A stretch of 64,000 nt of DNA, from the NCBI GenBank assembly GCA_030849065.1, contig JASAON010001632.1:1-64000 (forward strand). Reading direction: 5' to 3'. Position numbers and translations under genes: made by a program. Below the pieces are notes generated by a model. It made no database searches, was not told where the DNA came from, and saw only the letters and a list, made by a program, of their open reading frames with translations. Within the stretch, counting starts at the first letter, position 1; each line of letters starts with the position of its first letter. Source of the DNA: Jaenimonas drosophilae (Eukaryota; Euglenozoa; Kinetoplastea; Trypanosomatida; Trypanosomatidae). Of this stretch, positions 27,925 to 37,208 are shown piece after piece.

Positions 27925-29190
27925 TTACGCTGTACAACTCCAAAATCTGACAATAGTTGATAGTCCCTCAAGGTCGTCTGGCAACAAACCTGGAGTCAAG
28001 AGTCTAGGTTGCCTCAGGGAGGATGGGCCGTCTAAGTTTAGTATTGACTCCTGGTGCACACAAGTGAGGTAACAAGTGAGCGTGGCTAACATCTGCTTTG
28101 TGGACGGTTCAAGCAAGTCAGATTCAAAGGCAGCAGCTTGTGGCTCCCTAGGAAACAGTAGATGCTTGTGCGATCGTAGCGGATTCTGTGAAAACCACAA
28201 GTGAAGAGCGCTCCGCTTCTTTGCAATCGGACGAAGACACAATAAGGTGTCACAGCAGTCTCGTTCAATAGAAAGATTGATTCGAGAAAGAGATCCGCCA
28301 CCGTAGTTTGCAAAACAGCAAAATTCACGTACTCCCTCAAACTGGGGATCGCCGATAGTTTTCGCAAACTCAGAGCACTTCTGTTTTCCCAGCCTCTCAA
28401 CATAAGCAATGTCATGAAACAATAGTAGTTCGTGAATTTCCTGAGAGATTTGTTGTTGGCAGAGGACCACCGAAACACCAAGGTTTTGAAGAGCTGACAC
28501 AAAATTGTGCCCCTGCTCACCACTTGACAAACTGAAAAACAGTGCAGCGCGTCCTACGCGTTTCTTTCTCTGCTTTCTTTTTGAAAAAAAGTAAGCATTG
28601 TACGAACAGGGTGGAATTGCGACAGAAAATTTGGCAGAAGATTCCAGCCAAGATCCACCAAGCTTTGTTGACAACAGCTGGTCCTCTGAAGGATGGCACT
28701 CAACCTCCAACAAAACAGGAACATCAACTAGGGCACAAGAATAATTATCTGGAGGGATAATATGGAGGTCTTCCATCAGAGATAACAGCGAATTTGTGGT
28801 TTCACAAGGACAACTTGGACTTTGTGAGTCAGCGCATTCACAGCCAACTCGGTGGAAAGACGTATGTTCGTCCTCTGTTCTACGGTGTGACATGTGTAGA
28901 GACGCAACAGTTCTACGCTCAGAGAGCTCACTTCTGCATTGTAAGATCACTTCAATGGCAATGGCAAACCTTAAAAACTGAATAAATCTTGGGTGCGATT
29001 GATTACATAGCAGCCGATTCACTAACATCAAGGTATGCGCGCCCTTGTTGTTAACTGAATCGAGAATACAAGTTACCAATGCGTCAACCGACCAACACCA
29101 AATATCCCCTTCTGGAAAATATAGCACCCGGCCCCGAGCCACCATCAAAGCACAAGCGGCGGCCAGCCGGAGAACCGCTTCATCGTCCAT
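27925..29190 (-). CDS. divergent chaperonin, MKKS/BBS6-like
   Basis: 421 residues; the frame is closed by a TAG two codons upstream of the ATG (29188-29190). The region about 245-300 has the apical-domain pattern of the BBS chaperonins: VVLCQQQISQEIHELLLFHD then IAYVERLGKQKCSEFAKTIG, followed by a variable strand region and a helical end (STKQMLATLTCYLTC). This matches MKKS (VLCQ-x-I ... R-x-G) better than ordinary CCT subunits. The nucleotide motif GDGT and the equatorial N-terminus are not evident, as in MKKS, and the protein is shorter than usual (about 570). By family it would help assemble the BBSome. A CCT-like relative or a degenerate protein are alternatives. Its 5' end lies next to the odd homopolymer zone, so the N-terminus may be damaged. 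Confidence 0.55.
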   Translation of the reverse strand: MDDEAVLRLAAACALMVARGRVLYFPEGDIWCWSVDALVTCILDSVNNKGAHTLMLVNRLLCNQSHPRFIQFLRFAIAIEVILQCRSELSERRTVASLHMSHRRTEDEHTSFHRVGCECADSQSPSCPCETTNSLLSLMEDLHIIPPDNYSCALVDVPVLLEVECHPSEDQLLSTKLGGSWLESSAKFSVAIPPCSYNAYFFSKRKQRKKRVGRAALFFSLSSGEQGHNFVSALQNLGVSVVLCQQQISQEIHELLLFHDIAYVERLGKQKCSEFAKTIGDPQFEGVREFCCFANYGGGSLSRINLSIERDCCDTLLCLRPIAKKRSALHLWFSQNPLRSHKHLLFPREPQAAAFESDLLEPSTKQMLATLTCYLTCVHQESILNLDGPSSLRQPRLLTPGLLPDDLEGLSTIVRFWSCTA

Positions 29191-30982
29191 CACCTAATTG
29201 TCCCTTTCCTAATCATCCGCTTTCATCAAAAATTGTCAAAAGCGGAAGCAGCACCTATTCCACAAATGAGAAGTTGCCAATGGAAGGAGCCCCCCCCCCC
29301 CCGCCGCAGACGAGACAGCCACAATCCAAGAAACAGTTTCCACGCAGATAAGGAAAACCACCAAACGACCCGATCCCAACGGCGGATCCCCAAGGGATCT
29401 GAATTCATCCCCCCTCCCCCCCACAAAGTTGAGAAGAAAAAAGAACGCAGCCCCGGGTTTTTTTTGGGGGGGGGAAACACCCGCCCCCCCCCCGCCAGAC
29501 GGAGACGGCCCACCCGGGCATTTTCATTTCCGAACGAGAAACCCAGCAAGCGGCACAACTGGATTTTTCGGGCGGGGGGGGGGCCGCCCGCCCGGAGCCT
29601 TCCCATCGAGAAACCGCAGGACGGCGGCAAAATAAAACGGCCCCAAAACGAAAAGGGGGCGGGAGGGGGAACACCCCGCCGGTGGCGAAAAATGCCAGAC
29701 CGAGCCGGCAAAAACCCGCCCCCCCCCCCCAAAAGCCCCGCCCGAAACAAAAAAAAGCCAACGCCTTTCGCCAACATGGAGATGGAGCCCCGCCGAAAAG
29801 AAATGGAGTCGCAACACGCCCAAAACCCCCAAACCCCGGCCCCGGCGCCGCGAGGGAAGGGGGGTGGCGGGGCGGTGGCGGTGGGGACATCCAACCCCCC
29901 CCCCCCTTACAACCCAACGCCAACGAAACCCACCGGAAGAAAAAGCGCGCGAATCCGAATTCAAACGGCGGGAATTTGGCCAATTGCCAAACGTATAAGC
30001 ACAACAAACGACTTATTTCTGGGGAACAATCGGCGCCCAGCCGCCCCCGCCGGCGGCCACTTCGCCGGCCAACGCCCCGCCGCCAGAAACCGCGGCGCCA
30101 AATTGCCACCGCGGGGGCGGGGTCGCCGGCGTGCCCCCAATTTTGCCCCGCGGGGGGGGGGGAATTTGACGGCGCCGGCTCGAAGCGCGCGCTCATAAAA
30201 AATTTGATGCCACATTGCTGGCGCGCTGGCATGCGCACCGGGGTAAATGCTGATCCAAGTTAACTTTTGCTCCTCGCATCGTGGCGGTCGTTTTCCGCAT
30301 GGCCATTTCCCTGTCGAGGGCGGCGTGCGCTTTGCCACGCCCCCCCCCCCCGCCCCCCGGCGCCGGCGCGCGCCAAACCCATTGCGCCGCCCCGGCGTAC
30401 GCTTGTGCGTGAGGGGGGGGGTTCGAATCTTCGCGAACCCTGGCGCTCCGGCGCAAATCCGTCATTGCAAGAAAAAGAACGGAAAAACTAATTCTCAATT
30501 TAAAGTTCCGGCGCCCCCCCCCCCCCCCGCCGCAAGGGTTTTTTTTTTTTACCCCCGGCCCGCGGCGGCGCGGCCTTTGCTTCCGCCGCGCGGGGTTGCC
30601 ACTTGCTCCCGCGGCGGCGTCCCCCCCCGCCCGCGGCGCAGGCGGGTTATCCTTGCACGCGCCTTGCTTGGAATCCGGCCGGTGGGGATTCGGGCATTAA
30701 GGGCGGTGTTCGTGCGTGCTCCCCCCCTCGCCAAAAAAAAAGGCACACCCGTTGGGGAAGTGGGTGGGATCTGGCATTGGCCTCAAAAGTAGTGGGCGCG
30801 CGCAACAGAAATGTGATGCCGCCACTCCTCGGCGCGTTTGGCCACCGCAAAAAAAGGAATACCGCGCAAACCTGTTCCGCGCATTTTTTTTCGCTCAATG
30901 GAACGATTTTGGCAATTCCCCAAAAACCAACAATACAATCTCGTACAGTTTTGTGAGTGATATTACATTCCCACATGTTACT
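29191..30982. other. gene-free zone, homopolymer-rich, doubtful sequence
   Basis: No credible gene. From about 29285 to 30760 the sequence has many C and G runs of 8-14 (near 29290, 29470, 29570, 29720, 29900, 30340, 30410 and 30520) mixed with A runs. T is very scarce on the plus strand to about 29990 and normal again from about 30240. Long open frames on both strands here follow from this composition and are not genes. Either a collapsed or badly read repeat or a real GC-rich island. Confidence 0.6.
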
Positions 30983-31101
30983 GTGTACGACCATACTCCA
31001 GTGAAAACACCATATCCCGTCCGATTTGTGAAGTTAAGCACCGGCAGGCCAAGTTAGTACTGAGGTCAGTGATGACTTGGGAACCCTTGGTGCCGTACAC
31101 C
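30983..31101 (+). rRNA. 5S ribosomal RNA
   Basis: A full 119-base 5S rRNA. The ends pair (GTGTACG at the 5' end with CGTACAC at the 3' end, forming helix I). The core CACCATATCCCGTCCGATTT followed by GTGAAGTTAAGC is the kinetoplastid-type sequence. Internal control elements are visible: box A around 31033-31043, the intermediate element near 31056 (TAGTACTGAGG) and box C near 31071 (GATGACTTGGGAACCC). Five T follow at 31102-31106 as a Pol III terminator. It is on the strand opposite to all protein genes. Confidence 0.95.
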
Positions 31102-31722: not shown

Positions 31723-33915
31723 CTAGGCAAACTGCCAAAACCTAGCTAGGCCATCAGGGGAGGCCGACACGATGAGGTGGGAGTCGCTGTGGACCTTCAG
31801 CCCACGGGAGAGTCCCTTCCACCCTTGCGGGTATCCTCCAAGCACGGTGTTAAGGTTTCGAACATCCCAGAGGTACAGATTCTCTCCAACACTGGCGGCG
31901 AGGTGAACCCCATCCACATCAATCCCCGTGACGTAGTTCTTGAGGGTCAGGGTGTGTGCTGTGGACGCCCCAAAGTTGTCCAAGGAGGCCGTTCCCGTGA
32001 CGCCGCGTGGGATGCGTGTGTCCCATGAGTAGATGACGCGATCAAAGGCGCCGGTGAAGAACTGGTTGTCATCCCGAACGGAGAGCGACGGCAGCTTCTG
32101 TGAGTGCTCCTTGAGTGATCGAATGGCCTTTCCGCGGGTGACATCCACCATCGTGACCGACCCATCGCCCCCACCAATGAGGGCCAATGGGTAGGACGGG
32201 AGGCAGTCCACGACCTGGGCATTGGAGGGCAAGGGCACCAGACTCACCTTCTCGCTGTCACGGGAGCGGATGGCCAGGTTGTTCTGAAGGCCACCAATCA
32301 GCAGTGGGGAGTCCTGCGTGTTCTTGAGAAAGCTGACGCAGTACACGTGTGACGCGAGGGATGTGGAGTTCTCGGGAATTAATACCGCATCGGCGCTGGC
32401 ATTCTCCACCTTGGTGGAGAGGGACCAGAGTGACGCGGTGCTGTCCTCACTTCCCGTGGCGAAGCTGAACTTGCTGCTGAAGGCCACATCCCAAATCGCA
32501 GCGTCGTGGGCATGGGCCTGAAGCAGGGAGTTGCCGAGAGAGTCCAGGAAGTACACGTTTCCGCAGCTCGACCCAACGGCATAGCGCCCAGGCTCTCCCG
32601 CACTTCGAACGCATAGGAACTTATCCCCAGGAACACCCTTAAAGGTGCTGAGGAGTACCACACTCCCACTCACGTCAATGGGCGCGCCAGCACGCTTCGA
32701 CTGCATCACCTCACGTGGGGCGATATCCACAATTTCCACCGCGGCGCTAATGCGAACGTGGCGCTTTTGAGGCACGATGGAGGTGGCGGCGCCAAAGGTG
32801 CGACTCTCCGCGTTGTGCAGTTGCGATGCCCGCAGCGTCTCGGCCGTCACCAGCCGATGCCGCATCGAGGAGGAGGCGAGGGAGTCCGCCATGAGGTTGG
32901 ACCCCTCAAAGGATGAGACTAGCTTCAGCACAATCGCGTTCTGCACGAGACGTGCTGGGAAGTGGGGGTGGGGTTCTAAACTAATGACAATCTTGGCCTC
33001 CGGGTGGAACCCCTCGAGCTGGTGGGTGTGGGCGTCGGCGAGGAGCTCGTCAAAGATGCGGCAGGTGCTGATGGACTTGTGGGCGTTGGCCAAGACGAAC
33101 CACGCCCCCGATCGCATGGCCTCGGCGAAGGCGGAGGCCAACTCCTGTGGCTTGGGTCGGAGTCGCAGCTTCATGGCAACATCAATGGTGCAGATACGCT
33201 TCTTGGCATTCATGGCCATCAGCTCCAGCTCCGCGACGGGATTAATGCCGTGGGTGACGCAAATGACACACCGCCCTGGGGTAATCTTGCTCATTGCGGT
33301 GAGTAGGCGCCCCTTCACCGTCGTGGACGACGGCATCGTCTTGTTGGAGGACTCGTAGGAGGACGAGACCTTCATCTTGTCGAACTCGAGCAGGTAGGGC
33401 GACGAGGTATCATCGGCGTTCCCCGCCACACACTCCGAGTCCGCACGTGAGTACATGGAGACCCTCTGAAAGCTGCTGTCACTGCTGATGCCAATGGATG
33501 GAGAGCCCGCTTCCACCTCACCAGCCTCGGGCGGGGCGACGACCTCCTTCAAGGACGCAATCGCCTCCTTGTTGGCCGCCGCCACGAGACTGACGTTGCC
33601 ATCGAACATGACACTCTGCTCAATGGCGATGGCCGTTCCCTGCACGTCAGTGCGCTCCAACGTGATTCTGAGTGGCTTGCCCGGATTGGTGGCCTGGGAC
33701 TGAATGAGGGCCTCCTGCAGGTCCCCCGTATCCATGACGCGCTTGTCATTCACCGCCGCCACACGAAGACTGCTGGCAGACTTGCCCACCTGGTTTATAA
33801 GCTCCGCATGGGCGGTGTGGGTGTGTGTGCCATGAATGCTGCAGTCGGGGCCGAAGGAGAAGGTATCAACCAGCGCCTGCGCACTCGTCTCCAACGTCTT
33901 GGAGGGGTGTTGCAT
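31723..33915 (-). CDS. PDZ-like, dynein D6 (AAA6) and WD40 fusion protein
   Basis: 730 residues. Residues 35-95 look like a PDZ domain (AELINQVGKSASSLRVAAVN, then ALIQSQATNPGKPLRITLER). Residues about 210-345 match the dynein heavy chain D6 region: CVICVTHGINPVAELELMAM corresponds to the FVLSPGVDP strand, SGAWFVLANAHKSISTCRIF to the GHWVILQNIHL segment, and KIVISLEPHPHFP to the RVFISAEP segment, with FPARLVQNAIVLK after it. From about 405 a WD40 propeller follows (IWDVAFSSKFSFATGSEDST, then ASLWSL, YSWDTR, YLWDVR, LARFWQFA). Dynein motor AAA1-4 modules are absent, so it cannot be a motor by itself. By inference it is a scaffold or docking protein related to dynein or flagellar transport. Start at the ATG 33913-33915. 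Confidence 0.72.
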   Translation of the reverse strand: MQHPSKTLETSAQALVDTFSFGPDCSIHGTHTHTAHAELINQVGKSASSLRVAAVNDKRVMDTGDLQEALIQSQATNPGKPLRITLERTDVQGTAIAIEQSVMFDGNVSLVAAANKEAIASLKEVVAPPEAGEVEAGSPSIGISSDSSFQRVSMYSRADSECVAGNADDTSSPYLLEFDKMKVSSSYESSNKTMPSSTTVKGRLLTAMSKITPGRCVICVTHGINPVAELELMAMNAKKRICTIDVAMKLRLRPKPQELASAFAEAMRSGAWFVLANAHKSISTCRIFDELLADAHTHQLEGFHPEAKIVISLEPHPHFPARLVQNAIVLKLVSSFEGSNLMADSLASSSMRHRLVTAETLRASQLHNAESRTFGAATSIVPQKRHVRISAAVEIVDIAPREVMQSKRAGAPIDVSGSVVLLSTFKGVPGDKFLCVRSAGEPGRYAVGSSCGNVYFLDSLGNSLLQAHAHDAAIWDVAFSSKFSFATGSEDSTASLWSLSTKVENASADAVLIPENSTSLASHVYCVSFLKNTQDSPLLIGGLQNNLAIRSRDSEKVSLVPLPSNAQVVDCLPSYPLALIGGGDGSVTMVDVTRGKAIRSLKEHSQKLPSLSVRDDNQFFTGAFDRVIYSWDTRIPRGVTGTASLDNFGASTAHTLTLKNYVTGIDVDGVHLAASVGENLYLWDVRNLNTVLGGYPQGWKGLSRGLKVHSDSHLIVSASPDGLARFWQFA

Positions 33916-34323: not shown

Positions 34324-36777
34324 CTACACCGATGGTGACTTGGAGCTTGCGTTCCGCCTCCACAATGTGCGCTCGACGGGGTGGTGTGGGGCGGCCAGGG
34401 CGTGGCGGTGTGTGCTGGTGGATACGTGGGGTGAGGTGTCAGAGGGCAGCGCGTCATCCCCGGCCGCCAGGCACTTTGCCTGGGAGGCGGAGCGCGAGTA
34501 CTGCCGTCGGCCTCGGGTGTTCTCCTTACCTGTTGTAGGGGAGGAGGAGGAGCCTGCACGGAGCTGCTGCATCTTGTAGAGCTCCAACAAGGTGACGTCC
34601 TCGTCCTCGTCGTAGGAGGTCTGACGCACGTTGACGTTGGCGCGATTGCGCAGGCTTCGGCTCTTGCTTCGACGGTTGGACGTGCTGCAGAAGGGGGAGT
34701 TGGTGGCTGAGGATGGCTCGGCGTAGAGCGACTGCGGATCGAGCTCGGGAGGCTCAATGGAGGGAGATGCACGCGCACGCCGCTTCCTCTGCCCCTTGGG
34801 GAGGAGTCGGCTGCGGAGGTCATTCAGCACCGACAAGGCGTTGCTCACCTCGCTGGTGTAGCGCGTGTGAGGCCCGAGGTTCTCTGCCTCATCATCGCGA
34901 TCCATGGATGGCATCTTGTGGCGCCACTGCCGCATCGCCTCCAGCTGGGCCTCTCGACGCGCGCTGCGTGCACGGACGGCCACGTCGCGTGGTGAGCTAG
35001 AGGCCGCCGCAGAGACGGATGCTGGAACCACCTTTGCACCTGCCGTGCCTACGCATGGTGCGTCGTCCAGGTTGACGGGGTAGCCGTTCTTGGCGCACTC
35101 AATATCGTCACGTACCAAACTATGCGCGAGCTCCAAGTCGGCGAGCTCCTGCCGCGCGACAAGAAGGGCGTCATGCAGGCGTGCGCGGGCCTCGGCTGTG
35201 CCGTCGGCATCGAGAAGCTCCAATGCGGCCGCACCGCCGTCGTCATCCTCTCTCTGGAGGAGAAGGCGCTTCTGCACAGGAACACAGCGCGAGGCAATAC
35301 GCTCCACGCAGACGCTCCACTCGTACACAATCCGTGCCCGCCTCGCGCGCTCCGTGAGGAGGAGCACATCCATCTCCTTGATGCTCTTGTGGTGGGCCTC
35401 GTGGAGGCGGTACTCCCAGTTGGCGAGATCCGTGTCCGCCGTCGCCACACGTTCGTGGAGCTCCTCCTCCAACCTGGCCTTCTTGGCTCTACGGTTCTCC
35501 ACCTCGTTGAGCACCTCGCGCTGACGACGGTGCTCATCCTCGGCGAGCTCCTGATTGTTGCTGCGCTGCCTTGACAGCTCACCCAGTTGGTTGTAGAAGC
35601 GCCCGATGCGCTCCACGGCGGCGGCGTGGTCGTGGGCGAGCAGGAGACGCTGCAGGTTCGTCAAGGCCTCCAGTGAGCCCGCTACCTCACCGTGGAAGCT
35701 GCCAATCACCGAGGAAACGGTGCTTGAGCAGAAGAGGTACGTGTCGCGCAAACCACGTTGATACTCCCCATCGCAGGCGTCCTGTAGACCCTCCACGAGA
35801 CCTCGCGCACCATCGCTGTACTGGTGCGTGAAGAGAGGTGGCATCGTCATGAGCACGACGGGGTCGTTCTTGATCTTCATGGCGCGCTGGGTGAAGCGCA
35901 ACGCCGCCACCGTTTGATCCATGTTCTCCCGCGACGGATTAATGCAGCAGAGAATGAAGGTGATACCCGAGCCACCGAGGCAGTTGCGAAGAATGCGCGT
36001 CAGCTTCGCGTCTCGATAGGGCACATAGGGCCGCTTTTCTACAATCGCATCCACGACATTGCCCAGCGAGAGAAGACTCTTGTTGATGAAGCCACCTTCG
36101 CGGAGTGAGAGGCCCTCGGTGTTGGCACGTGCCGCACACTCTGCACCAGCCAGATCCACCAAATTCAGGACGCTACGGCTGCCGCGGTTGGAGCGATGAA
36201 TCTCAAAGGCTAAGATGATGTGCGAGCGACTGCTGTGGTCGTTGAGGTTGGTGACTCCGTACTTGCGATTGGCCTCCGCCATGGCCTGAATACGCAGAAA
36301 ATCGTCGTAGGATTCAATGGTGACGGTCTTCTTGTCGTAGACGACGCCGCCGTCGGGGGCATCGTGCAGCACCAACTCCCCACGTTGTGGCTCGAGGAGG
36401 TCCTTCACAGACTCATTATAAACCTCCGTGTAGTAGGCCTCAATGGAGGTGCCGGGGTGGTGGTGCTTCAGCTCCAGCAACAGCCGCGCCGCACGCGGGA
36501 CGATGCCCACATCCTCTGGCACACCAATCATGCTATGCGTCTTGCCGCTGCCGGTTTGGCCATAGGCCATGATGGTGACGTTCTTTCCATCGAAGGCGGC
36601 GTGCACGATGGCCTCCAGGCCCTTGAAGATGGTGTGGTTGGAGCTGTTGGAGGGGTGTACGCGGTTATACACGTAGCGGGTGTTGGGGTTGGAGGTGTTG
36701 TAGAGGACGGTTTCTGCGCTCGACCACACACAGCTACTCACCTCGGGCCGAACGCGAACATGAACCTCAATACTCAT
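34324..36777 (-). CDS. kinesin with N-terminal motor domain
   Basis: 817 residues from the ATG at 36775-36777 (MSIEVHVRVRP). The motor domain is complete: P-loop AYGQTGSGKTHSM at about 71-83, switch I NLNDHSSRSH near 180, switch II LVDLAGAECA near 205, and VPYRDAKLTRILRNCLGG near 250, ending ALRFTQRAMKIKNDP near 300, which fits a kinesin-7/CENP-E-like neck. A modest coiled coil lies around 400-480 and the tail is Ser/Arg-rich. It is an ATP-driven microtubule motor, most likely plus-end directed. The short stalk suggests a small or non-processive motor. Subfamily is uncertain. Confidence 0.9.
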   Translation of the reverse strand: MSIEVHVRVRPEVSSCVWSSAETVLYNTSNPNTRYVYNRVHPSNSSNHTIFKGLEAIVHAAFDGKNVTIMAYGQTGSGKTHSMIGVPEDVGIVPRAARLLLELKHHHPGTSIEAYYTEVYNESVKDLLEPQRGELVLHDAPDGGVVYDKKTVTIESYDDFLRIQAMAEANRKYGVTNLNDHSSRSHIILAFEIHRSNRGSRSVLNLVDLAGAECAARANTEGLSLREGGFINKSLLSLGNVVDAIVEKRPYVPYRDAKLTRILRNCLGGSGITFILCCINPSRENMDQTVAALRFTQRAMKIKNDPVVLMTMPPLFTHQYSDGARGLVEGLQDACDGEYQRGLRDTYLFCSSTVSSVIGSFHGEVAGSLEALTNLQRLLLAHDHAAAVERIGRFYNQLGELSRQRSNNQELAEDEHRRQREVLNEVENRRAKKARLEEELHERVATADTDLANWEYRLHEAHHKSIKEMDVLLLTERARRARIVYEWSVCVERIASRCVPVQKRLLLQREDDDGGAAALELLDADGTAEARARLHDALLVARQELADLELAHSLVRDDIECAKNGYPVNLDDAPCVGTAGAKVVPASVSAAASSSPRDVAVRARSARREAQLEAMRQWRHKMPSMDRDDEAENLGPHTRYTSEVSNALSVLNDLRSRLLPKGQRKRRARASPSIEPPELDPQSLYAEPSSATNSPFCSTSNRRSKSRSLRNRANVNVRQTSYDEDEDVTLLELYKMQQLRAGSSSSPTTGKENTRGRRQYSRSASQAKCLAAGDDALPSDTSPHVSTSTHRHALAAPHHPVERTLWRRNASSKSPSV

Positions 36778-37208
36778 GTCACACACCTACACACCTACAG
36801 GAAGGGAAGAAGCCTCACAACACCCTCGCCACAAACAACAACAACAAAGACACTCTCGCACACAATCGTTAGTGCAACAGACACGTGTTGATGGATGTGC
36901 CCGTAGTGCGTGAGTGTGTTGGTGCGTCGCTACGCAAGAGAAAGGGAGAAAAAAAAAGACGAAGAAGGAGATTGCTTGAAGTTGGGGCAGACACACAACA
37001 TTGGTTTGGCAGGACGTACATGTGCTTCATGCGTGTGTGTGTGTGTGAAAAAGTTGGGGAGGCGAGGGGGGAATCAACTGAATCTGTGGATGTGGGCGTT
37101 TTAGTGTCGCCAGCCCAGCCTGGCTGACGACGATGGCCCACACACAAGATGAAAAAGAACAATAACATGATGATGCGCATAATGATGGTGGCGGTGCTGA
37201 TGCCTTCC
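36778..37208. other. intergenic region
   Basis: 431 bases with a GT microsatellite at 37034-37047. A-rich stretches near 36951-36970 (T-rich on the minus strand) may be pyrimidine tracts for the kinesin. No gene. Confidence 0.4.

Follow-up and report, generated by a model that had tools for sequence, protein, structure and literature searches.

Dynein heavy chains are built from a tail, a linker, six AAA modules and a stalk, and comprise about 4,000 residues. The last of these modules, AAA6 (region D6), is usually considered only in the context of the dynein ring, and in true dyneins it is not known to carry a Walker A motif. DAW1/ODA16 and LIS1 are examples of WD40 proteins that act on dynein. 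DAW1/ODA16, a dynein assembly factor, is not known to contain a D6 or PDZ-like domain. Beta-propellers are common in flagellar structural assemblies.

Here we describe a gene within a 64,000-nucleotide stretch of the Jaenimonas drosophilae genome (contig JASAON010001632.1, positions 1 to 64,000; hereafter the window) whose product carries a D6 region together with PDZ-like and WD40 domains. Its D6 has the same fold as the AAA6 of dynein heavy chains (PF03028; human dynein-1 and Trypanosoma brucei axonemal dyneins) and can be aligned with it over about 130 residues, the two having three motifs in common: N/D-P following strand 1, G-x-W preceding strand 3 and F-P following strand 4. Unlike a heavy chain, however, the protein has a single AAA subdomain in 730 amino acids, without linker, AAA1-5, stalk, lid or C-terminal region. 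Trypanosomatid database records named 'Dynein heavy chain region D6 P-loop domain' or 'WD domain, G-beta repeat' are orthologs and paralogs of this protein. As databases already carry these automatic names, the combination of D6 with WD40 is not in itself new. The PDZ-like part, the two-paralog structure of the family and a family-specific set of invariant D6 residues are absent from those names, and are described here.

Organisation of the gene and its product

The reading frame runs from an ATG to a stop codon, and its features are listed in Table 1. The AlphaFold2 model, built from 36 sequences, has a mean pLDDT of 76.6 and contains three confidently predicted domains, at about residues 1-92, 200-335 and 418-730. 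The segments between them, at residues 127-196 and 335-415, have pLDDT values below 50. Because the pTM is low (0.47), the placement of the domains relative to one another is not predicted. Confidence is also weaker in two loops of the propeller, at residues 501-510 and 631-650.

Table 1. Features of the D6 gene and its product (window coordinates)
Feature	Position	Strand	Remarks
D6 gene ORF	31723..33915	minus	730 aa; PDZ-like + D6/AAA6 + WD40; window member of paralog group A
Probable PDZ-like domain, residues 1-92	33640..33915	minus	AlphaFold2 strand/helix order; remote PDZ matches
Flexible linker 1, residues 127-196	33328..33537	minus	pLDDT <50; conservation 0.21 (low)
D6/AAA6 large subdomain, residues 200-335	32911..33318	minus	Pfam match 217-329; AlphaFold2; Foldseek
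N225-P226, loop that follows strand 1, where the P-loop has been lost	33238..33243	minus	80/80 rows; heavy chains D-P 7/8, N-P 1/8
Basic loop 249-253 after strand 2	33157..33171	minus	stretch mostly missing from heavy chains
NAHKSI, residues 277-282, loop that follows strand 3, at the Walker B position	33070..33087	minus	A278, K280, S281 in 80/80
EPHPHFP, residues 314-320, loop that follows strand 4	32956..32976	minus	H316, H318, F319, P320 in 80/80
Conserved peptide KRHVRISAAVEIVDIAPRE, residues 384-402, within disordered linker 2	32710..32766	minus	mean commonest-residue fraction 0.62
WD40 beta-propeller, residues 418-730	31726..32664	minus	28 predicted strands = 7 blades

A kinesin-like gene (34324-36786, minus strand; PF00225, 269.7 bits) lies directly upstream on the same strand. 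Elsewhere in the window, a 422-aa ORF (27925-29193, minus strand) gave a weak chaperonin match (PF00118, 19.3 bits against a cut-off of 34.3) and is maybe a diverged chaperonin-like protein. Positions 29226-30800 are GC-rich and contain long overlapping ORFs on both strands, with no nameable gene; the GC content is 0.59-0.65 over 29501-31000, flanked by a lower-GC gene (about 0.45) and by the D6 gene (about 0.60).

Two paralogs with the same architecture

A homolog search with the window protein returned 47 proteins, 35 of which belong to its family (P0002-P0036, with E values of 1.4e-110 or better); the other 12 matched in the WD40 part only, with E values from 2.4e-14 upward. A precomputed PF03028 match was present in 30 of the 35 family members, which together with the window protein we call group A. 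The organisms named were all trypanosomatid, from the genera Leishmania, Leptomonas, Novymonas, Porcisia, Angomonas, Phytomonas and Trypanosoma.

When the genome was searched with the PF03028 profile, the 17 matches obtained corresponded to 13 dynein heavy chains (frames of 4084-5138 aa, one heavy chain being in two pieces), the window gene and two further genes. One of these encodes a paralog, P0049 (locus L009, 2785-4674, minus strand, contig C329 of assembly G000), which has 617 aa from its likely ATG and the same order of PDZ-like, D6 and WD40 domains. All 48 homologs matched by P0049 fall into a second group, B, and 46 of them carry PF03028; those with a named organism are again all trypanosomatid. 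The other gene (locus L010, 2515-3555, minus strand, contig C336) encodes a 346-aa protein with a D6-like N-terminus, scoring 22.0 bits against a cut-off of 30.5, followed by ankyrin repeats. Like the window protein it has a D6-like domain outside a heavy chain, but ankyrin repeats take the place of the PDZ-like and WD40 domains, and the K-S and H-x-H residues that are invariant in the window family (see below) are missing. The earlier note had called an isolated D6 region very unusual. That the region occurs outside a heavy chain was confirmed, but it does not stand alone, as the same genome holds both a paralog of the same architecture and the D6-ankyrin protein.

In a tree of 80 rows, group A (35 rows) and group B (45 rows) each occupied one side of a branch with an SH-aLRT value of 100; the tree was made by a quick method with midpoint rooting and has some long branches. 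The short sequences P0034, P0083, P0089, P0096 and P0097 (383-490 aa) were excluded from the tree and from the conservation counts below. Both groups contain Leishmania, Phytomonas and Trypanosoma, and the duplication therefore predates the split of those genera. When the two paralogs were aligned jointly and used as one query, against the 7,995 candidates sharing most words with it, at least 17 matches were obtained, namely 12 rows of group A and 5 other proteins (752-1414 aa) that carry WD40. No group B row was among the matches listed, despite the presence of group B in the query, and distant relatives may thus be missed by this search. Among the matches listed for the window protein, P0049 and the merged alignment, no counterpart was recognised outside the trypanosomatids. 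The architecture for which the earlier note had proposed a search is found in both paralog groups, in trypanosomatids and in deeper relatives, and through the latter the family probably extends to kinetoplastids at large.

The D6/AAA6 domain

Pfam model PF03028 matched the window protein with 38.2 bits, above the curated cut-off of 30.5. Scores above this cut-off were also obtained for the paralog P0049 (41.2) and for a T. brucei group B protein (37.3), while two T. brucei group A proteins, P0032 (28.4) and P0036 (30.2), fell just below it. An AAA6 fold is present in the predicted structure. In a Foldseek search with the full-length model the best 50 rows were all chains of 299-445 residues, which we take to be propeller chains, and residues 1-345 were therefore modelled separately. 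With this model, all 50 matches listed were dynein-size chains from dynein or axoneme entries, so that the D6 fold expected of the N-terminal part was borne out. The Pfam score, a reciprocal HMM comparison with a reversed control, and the fold search together exclude a chance match or artefact.

GxxxxGK[ST], the Walker A pattern, is absent from all 35 rows of group A; two of the 45 group B rows have it, within the propeller, at residues 591 and 594. Relaxing it to [AG]xxxxGK[ST] added one row, P0028, at residue 474, which is C-terminal to the D6 of that protein. As the AAA6 of true dyneins also lacks this motif, its absence alone cannot separate the window protein from heavy chains. No AAA lid model was among the 24 Pfam families matched by the window protein at E <= 1, and in the AlphaFold2 model the chain is disordered past the fifth strand of D6. 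The domain would thus be unable to hydrolyse ATP. With one AAA subdomain only, no Walker A motif and no matched lid, a role as a motor or ATPase is unlikely.

The PDZ-like domain and the WD40 propeller

Residues 1-92 of the AlphaFold2 model were compared with the strand and helix order of PDZ domains, and were found to follow it, with an extra helix at residues 12-18. By sequence, the window protein scored 13.0 bits against PDZ_6, below the cut-off of 27, and DUF5983_N ranked higher (17.1 against 27). Matches to Pfam PDZ models were obtained for some relatives, PDZ_2 in 6 of 12 group A members and PDZ_6 in 3 of 12 group B members. None matched P0049, the weak matches of which were to unrelated families.

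Profiles of the N-terminal regions of the two groups matched each other with 97% probability. Against the PDB, the group B profile found PDZ-bearing proteases of the DegQ/DegP type, with E values from 1.5e-4 upward, among 74 sequences at E <= 10, of which the best 60 were listed and some are unrelated. The group A profile found 17 sequences, the best at 0.035, and 14 of the 17 are by name PDZ domains or HtrA/Deg-type or trypsin-like proteases. We conclude that the N-terminal domain of the window protein is probably PDZ-like.

The C-terminal propeller was recognised as WD40 repeats (PF00400, 43 bits against a cut-off of 27), and its best fold match was 7f1q_B (TMt 0.81), presumably a G-protein beta chain. 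DAW1/ODA16, which has a WD40 propeller as well, was among both the sequence and the fold matches. It was one of many generic WD40 matches, and was outranked by designed propellers in sequence and by G-protein beta chains in fold. These results substantiate the description of the protein in the earlier note as a D6 region joined to PDZ-like and WD40 domains, the first of these being PDZ-like rather than a recognised PDZ domain.

Invariant residues of D6 that are specific to the family

Residues N225, P226, G270, W272, A278, K280, S281, H316, H318, F319 and P320 of D6 are invariant in all 80 rows, and E314 and P317 are present in 79. To these may be added the basic loop after strand 2: position 249 is lysine in all 35 group A rows and arginine in all 45 group B rows, position 251 is basic in 79 of the 80, and position 253 is arginine or lysine in every row. 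The family was compared with 8 of the 13 heavy chains of the genome, a comparison that relies on a MAFFT alignment. All eight have a gap at positions 249 and 251 and glutamine at 253. All have cysteine at 278 and leucine or valine at 280, and serine at 281 occurs in one. After strand 4 the F-P pair is present in all eight, H316 in none and H318 in one. Thus K280, S281, H316, H318 and the basic loop distinguish the D6 of the window family from that of the heavy chains compared, where they are largely missing.

In the model, residues 225-226, 249-253, 277-282 and 314-320 come directly after strands 1, 2, 3 and 4, respectively, and in the P-loop fold the ends of these strands line the nucleotide edge. 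From the strand order in the model and this topology, K280, S281, H316, H318 and loop 249-253 may form one site on the edge of the former ATP site, suggesting that a binding site has been reused. The invariance of these residues could instead reflect folding rather than ligand binding.

A conserved peptide in the second linker

The second linker contains a peptide, residues 384-402, which is better conserved than its flanks, where the mean commonest-residue fraction is 0.31 (residues 336-383) and 0.40 (residues 403-417). Despite its disordered setting it is also more conserved than the propeller (0.56) and D6 (0.53). In group A a regular expression for the peptide matched 28 of the 35 rows, whereas in group B it matched only 6 of the 45. 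Conservation across both groups is therefore claimed from V387, V393 and V396, which are present in 98-100% of the 80 rows. The peptide may function in docking; alternatively, it may fold as a strand onto a partner.

Relation to the flagellum

The PDB was searched with the window protein (P0001), a group A protein of T. brucei gambiense (P0032) and a group B protein of T. brucei equiperdum (P0081). No family member was found, only generic WD40 chains such as CFAP52. The PDB copy searched includes the 96-nm doublet structures 9e5c (T. brucei) and 9y6s (L. tarentolae), and a heavy chain of the same genome, used as a positive control, matched them at 1.5e-167 and 1.9e-164 respectively. No modelled chain of 9e5c or 9y6s therefore belongs to the family, a result that applies to doublets and leaves unmodelled density aside, and the protein is unlikely to occupy a fixed position in the doublet repeat as modelled. 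For the D6-ankyrin protein, no 9e5c or 9y6s chain was among the best 60 of 291 PDB matches.

Among the open-licence papers listed by our literature searches we found no localisation, interaction or mutant data for either paralog, and no functional study of a PDZ-D6-WD40 protein. Term look-ups in PMC2239267, PMC12637542 and PMC7617938 returned no passage on such a protein, and the passages returned from PMC4632311 had no bearing on it. The L. panamensis group B protein LPMP_303380 suggested LmxM.29.3360 as an ortholog of the paralog; LmxM chromosome 29 is taken here to be LmjF chromosome 30. According to a passage of PMC6615630, LmxM.29.3360 goes to the flagellum when tagged at its N-terminus and to the cell body when tagged at its C-terminus. 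A table in PMC6027440 apparently places LmjF.30.3360 among calmodulin-like proteins, and LmjF.30.3380 is given as PAS-PGK in a passage of PMC7729029. This candidate was rejected; as LmxM.29.3360 is probably calmodulin-like, its localisation was not used for the paralog.

A Crithidia protein annotated with D6 and ankyrin repeats, CFAC1_300105600, is reported in a table of a Crithidia proteomics paper (PMC11520290) to be higher in swimming than in attached cells. Judged by the domains they have in common, it may be the ortholog of the J. drosophilae D6-ankyrin protein. Given the origin of D6 and the enrichment in swimmers of this Crithidia protein, which is a different protein from that studied here, a role near the flagellum or dynein, in assembly, transport, at the base or tip or at another non-doublet site, would be the more likely setting for the window protein.

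Discussion

The scaffold-like build proposed in the earlier note is upheld, in that D6 lies outside a heavy chain, is flanked by PDZ-like and WD40 domains and is conserved in this arrangement in trypanosomatids; the note's further proposal, that the protein could dock dynein or act in flagellar assembly, stands as a hypothesis. The reading we prefer, which we consider about evenly balanced between being right and wrong, is that the window protein is a flexible, non-motor, multi-domain scaffold in which a dynein-type AAA6 subdomain has been reused as a binding module. Of the heavy chain only the AAA6 large subdomain would have been kept, and K280, S281, H316, H318 and loop 249-253 would provide a positively charged or histidine site at the former nucleotide edge. 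This site might bind an anionic or metal-held partner. Further partners could be held by the PDZ-like domain, the linker peptide and the propeller, and the long linkers would let one protein unite them.

The same domain could act in trans on heavy chains, as a mimic of AAA6 in their folding, inhibition or transport, and the protein would then be a dynein assembly or adaptor factor. D6 is indeed a genuine AAA6 homolog, the solved doublet chains include no member of the family, and DAW1/ODA16 and LIS1 are both among the generic propeller matches of the window protein. Several invariant residues of the family differ from heavy chains, however, so that what selection has preserved goes beyond simple imitation, and we think this explanation unlikely. 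It is similarly doubtful whether the protein is a structural component of the flagellum beyond the modelled doublet, such as in the central pair, paraflagellar rod, attachment zone, basal body or tip. The open-licence papers listed yielded no localisation in its favour once LmxM.29.3360 had proved probably calmodulin-like, although two paralogs have been retained in trypanosomatids, and 9e5c and 9y6s cover doublets only.

In a more radical departure, D6 would have taken on a new function in ligand binding or catalysis, for instance as a sensor of phosphate, metal or nucleotide, and would have lost its tie to dynein; this seems to us quite improbable. In its favour, K280, S281, H316, H318 and the basic loop lie where strands 2, 3 and 4 end, vary little or not at all over the 80 rows, and hardly occur in the eight heavy chains of the comparison. 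Against it, the N/D-P, G-x-W and F-P motifs are still shared with heavy chains.

The reuse of AAA6 as a binding module in a scaffold can be extended to the kinetoplastids as a group, although we put this wider proposal forward only tentatively and with low confidence. Kinetoplastids would possess a free AAA6 domain whose dead nucleotide edge was turned into a basic/histidine site, and which gave rise to a family of non-motor scaffolds, comprising two old PDZ-D6-WD40 paralogs and a separate D6-ankyrin protein. These would recognise a partner that is anionic or held through a metal, which might be dynein or tubulin, while the flagellum is being built.

Important parasites that rely on their flagella are found among the trypanosomatids. 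That AAA6 has been kept as a free domain by an old family of two paralogs shows that a dead AAA+ module can be put to new use. As a small D6 protein, the window protein offers a chance to study AAA6 in isolation, and the invariant site in its D6 is a direct and cheap handle for testing function.
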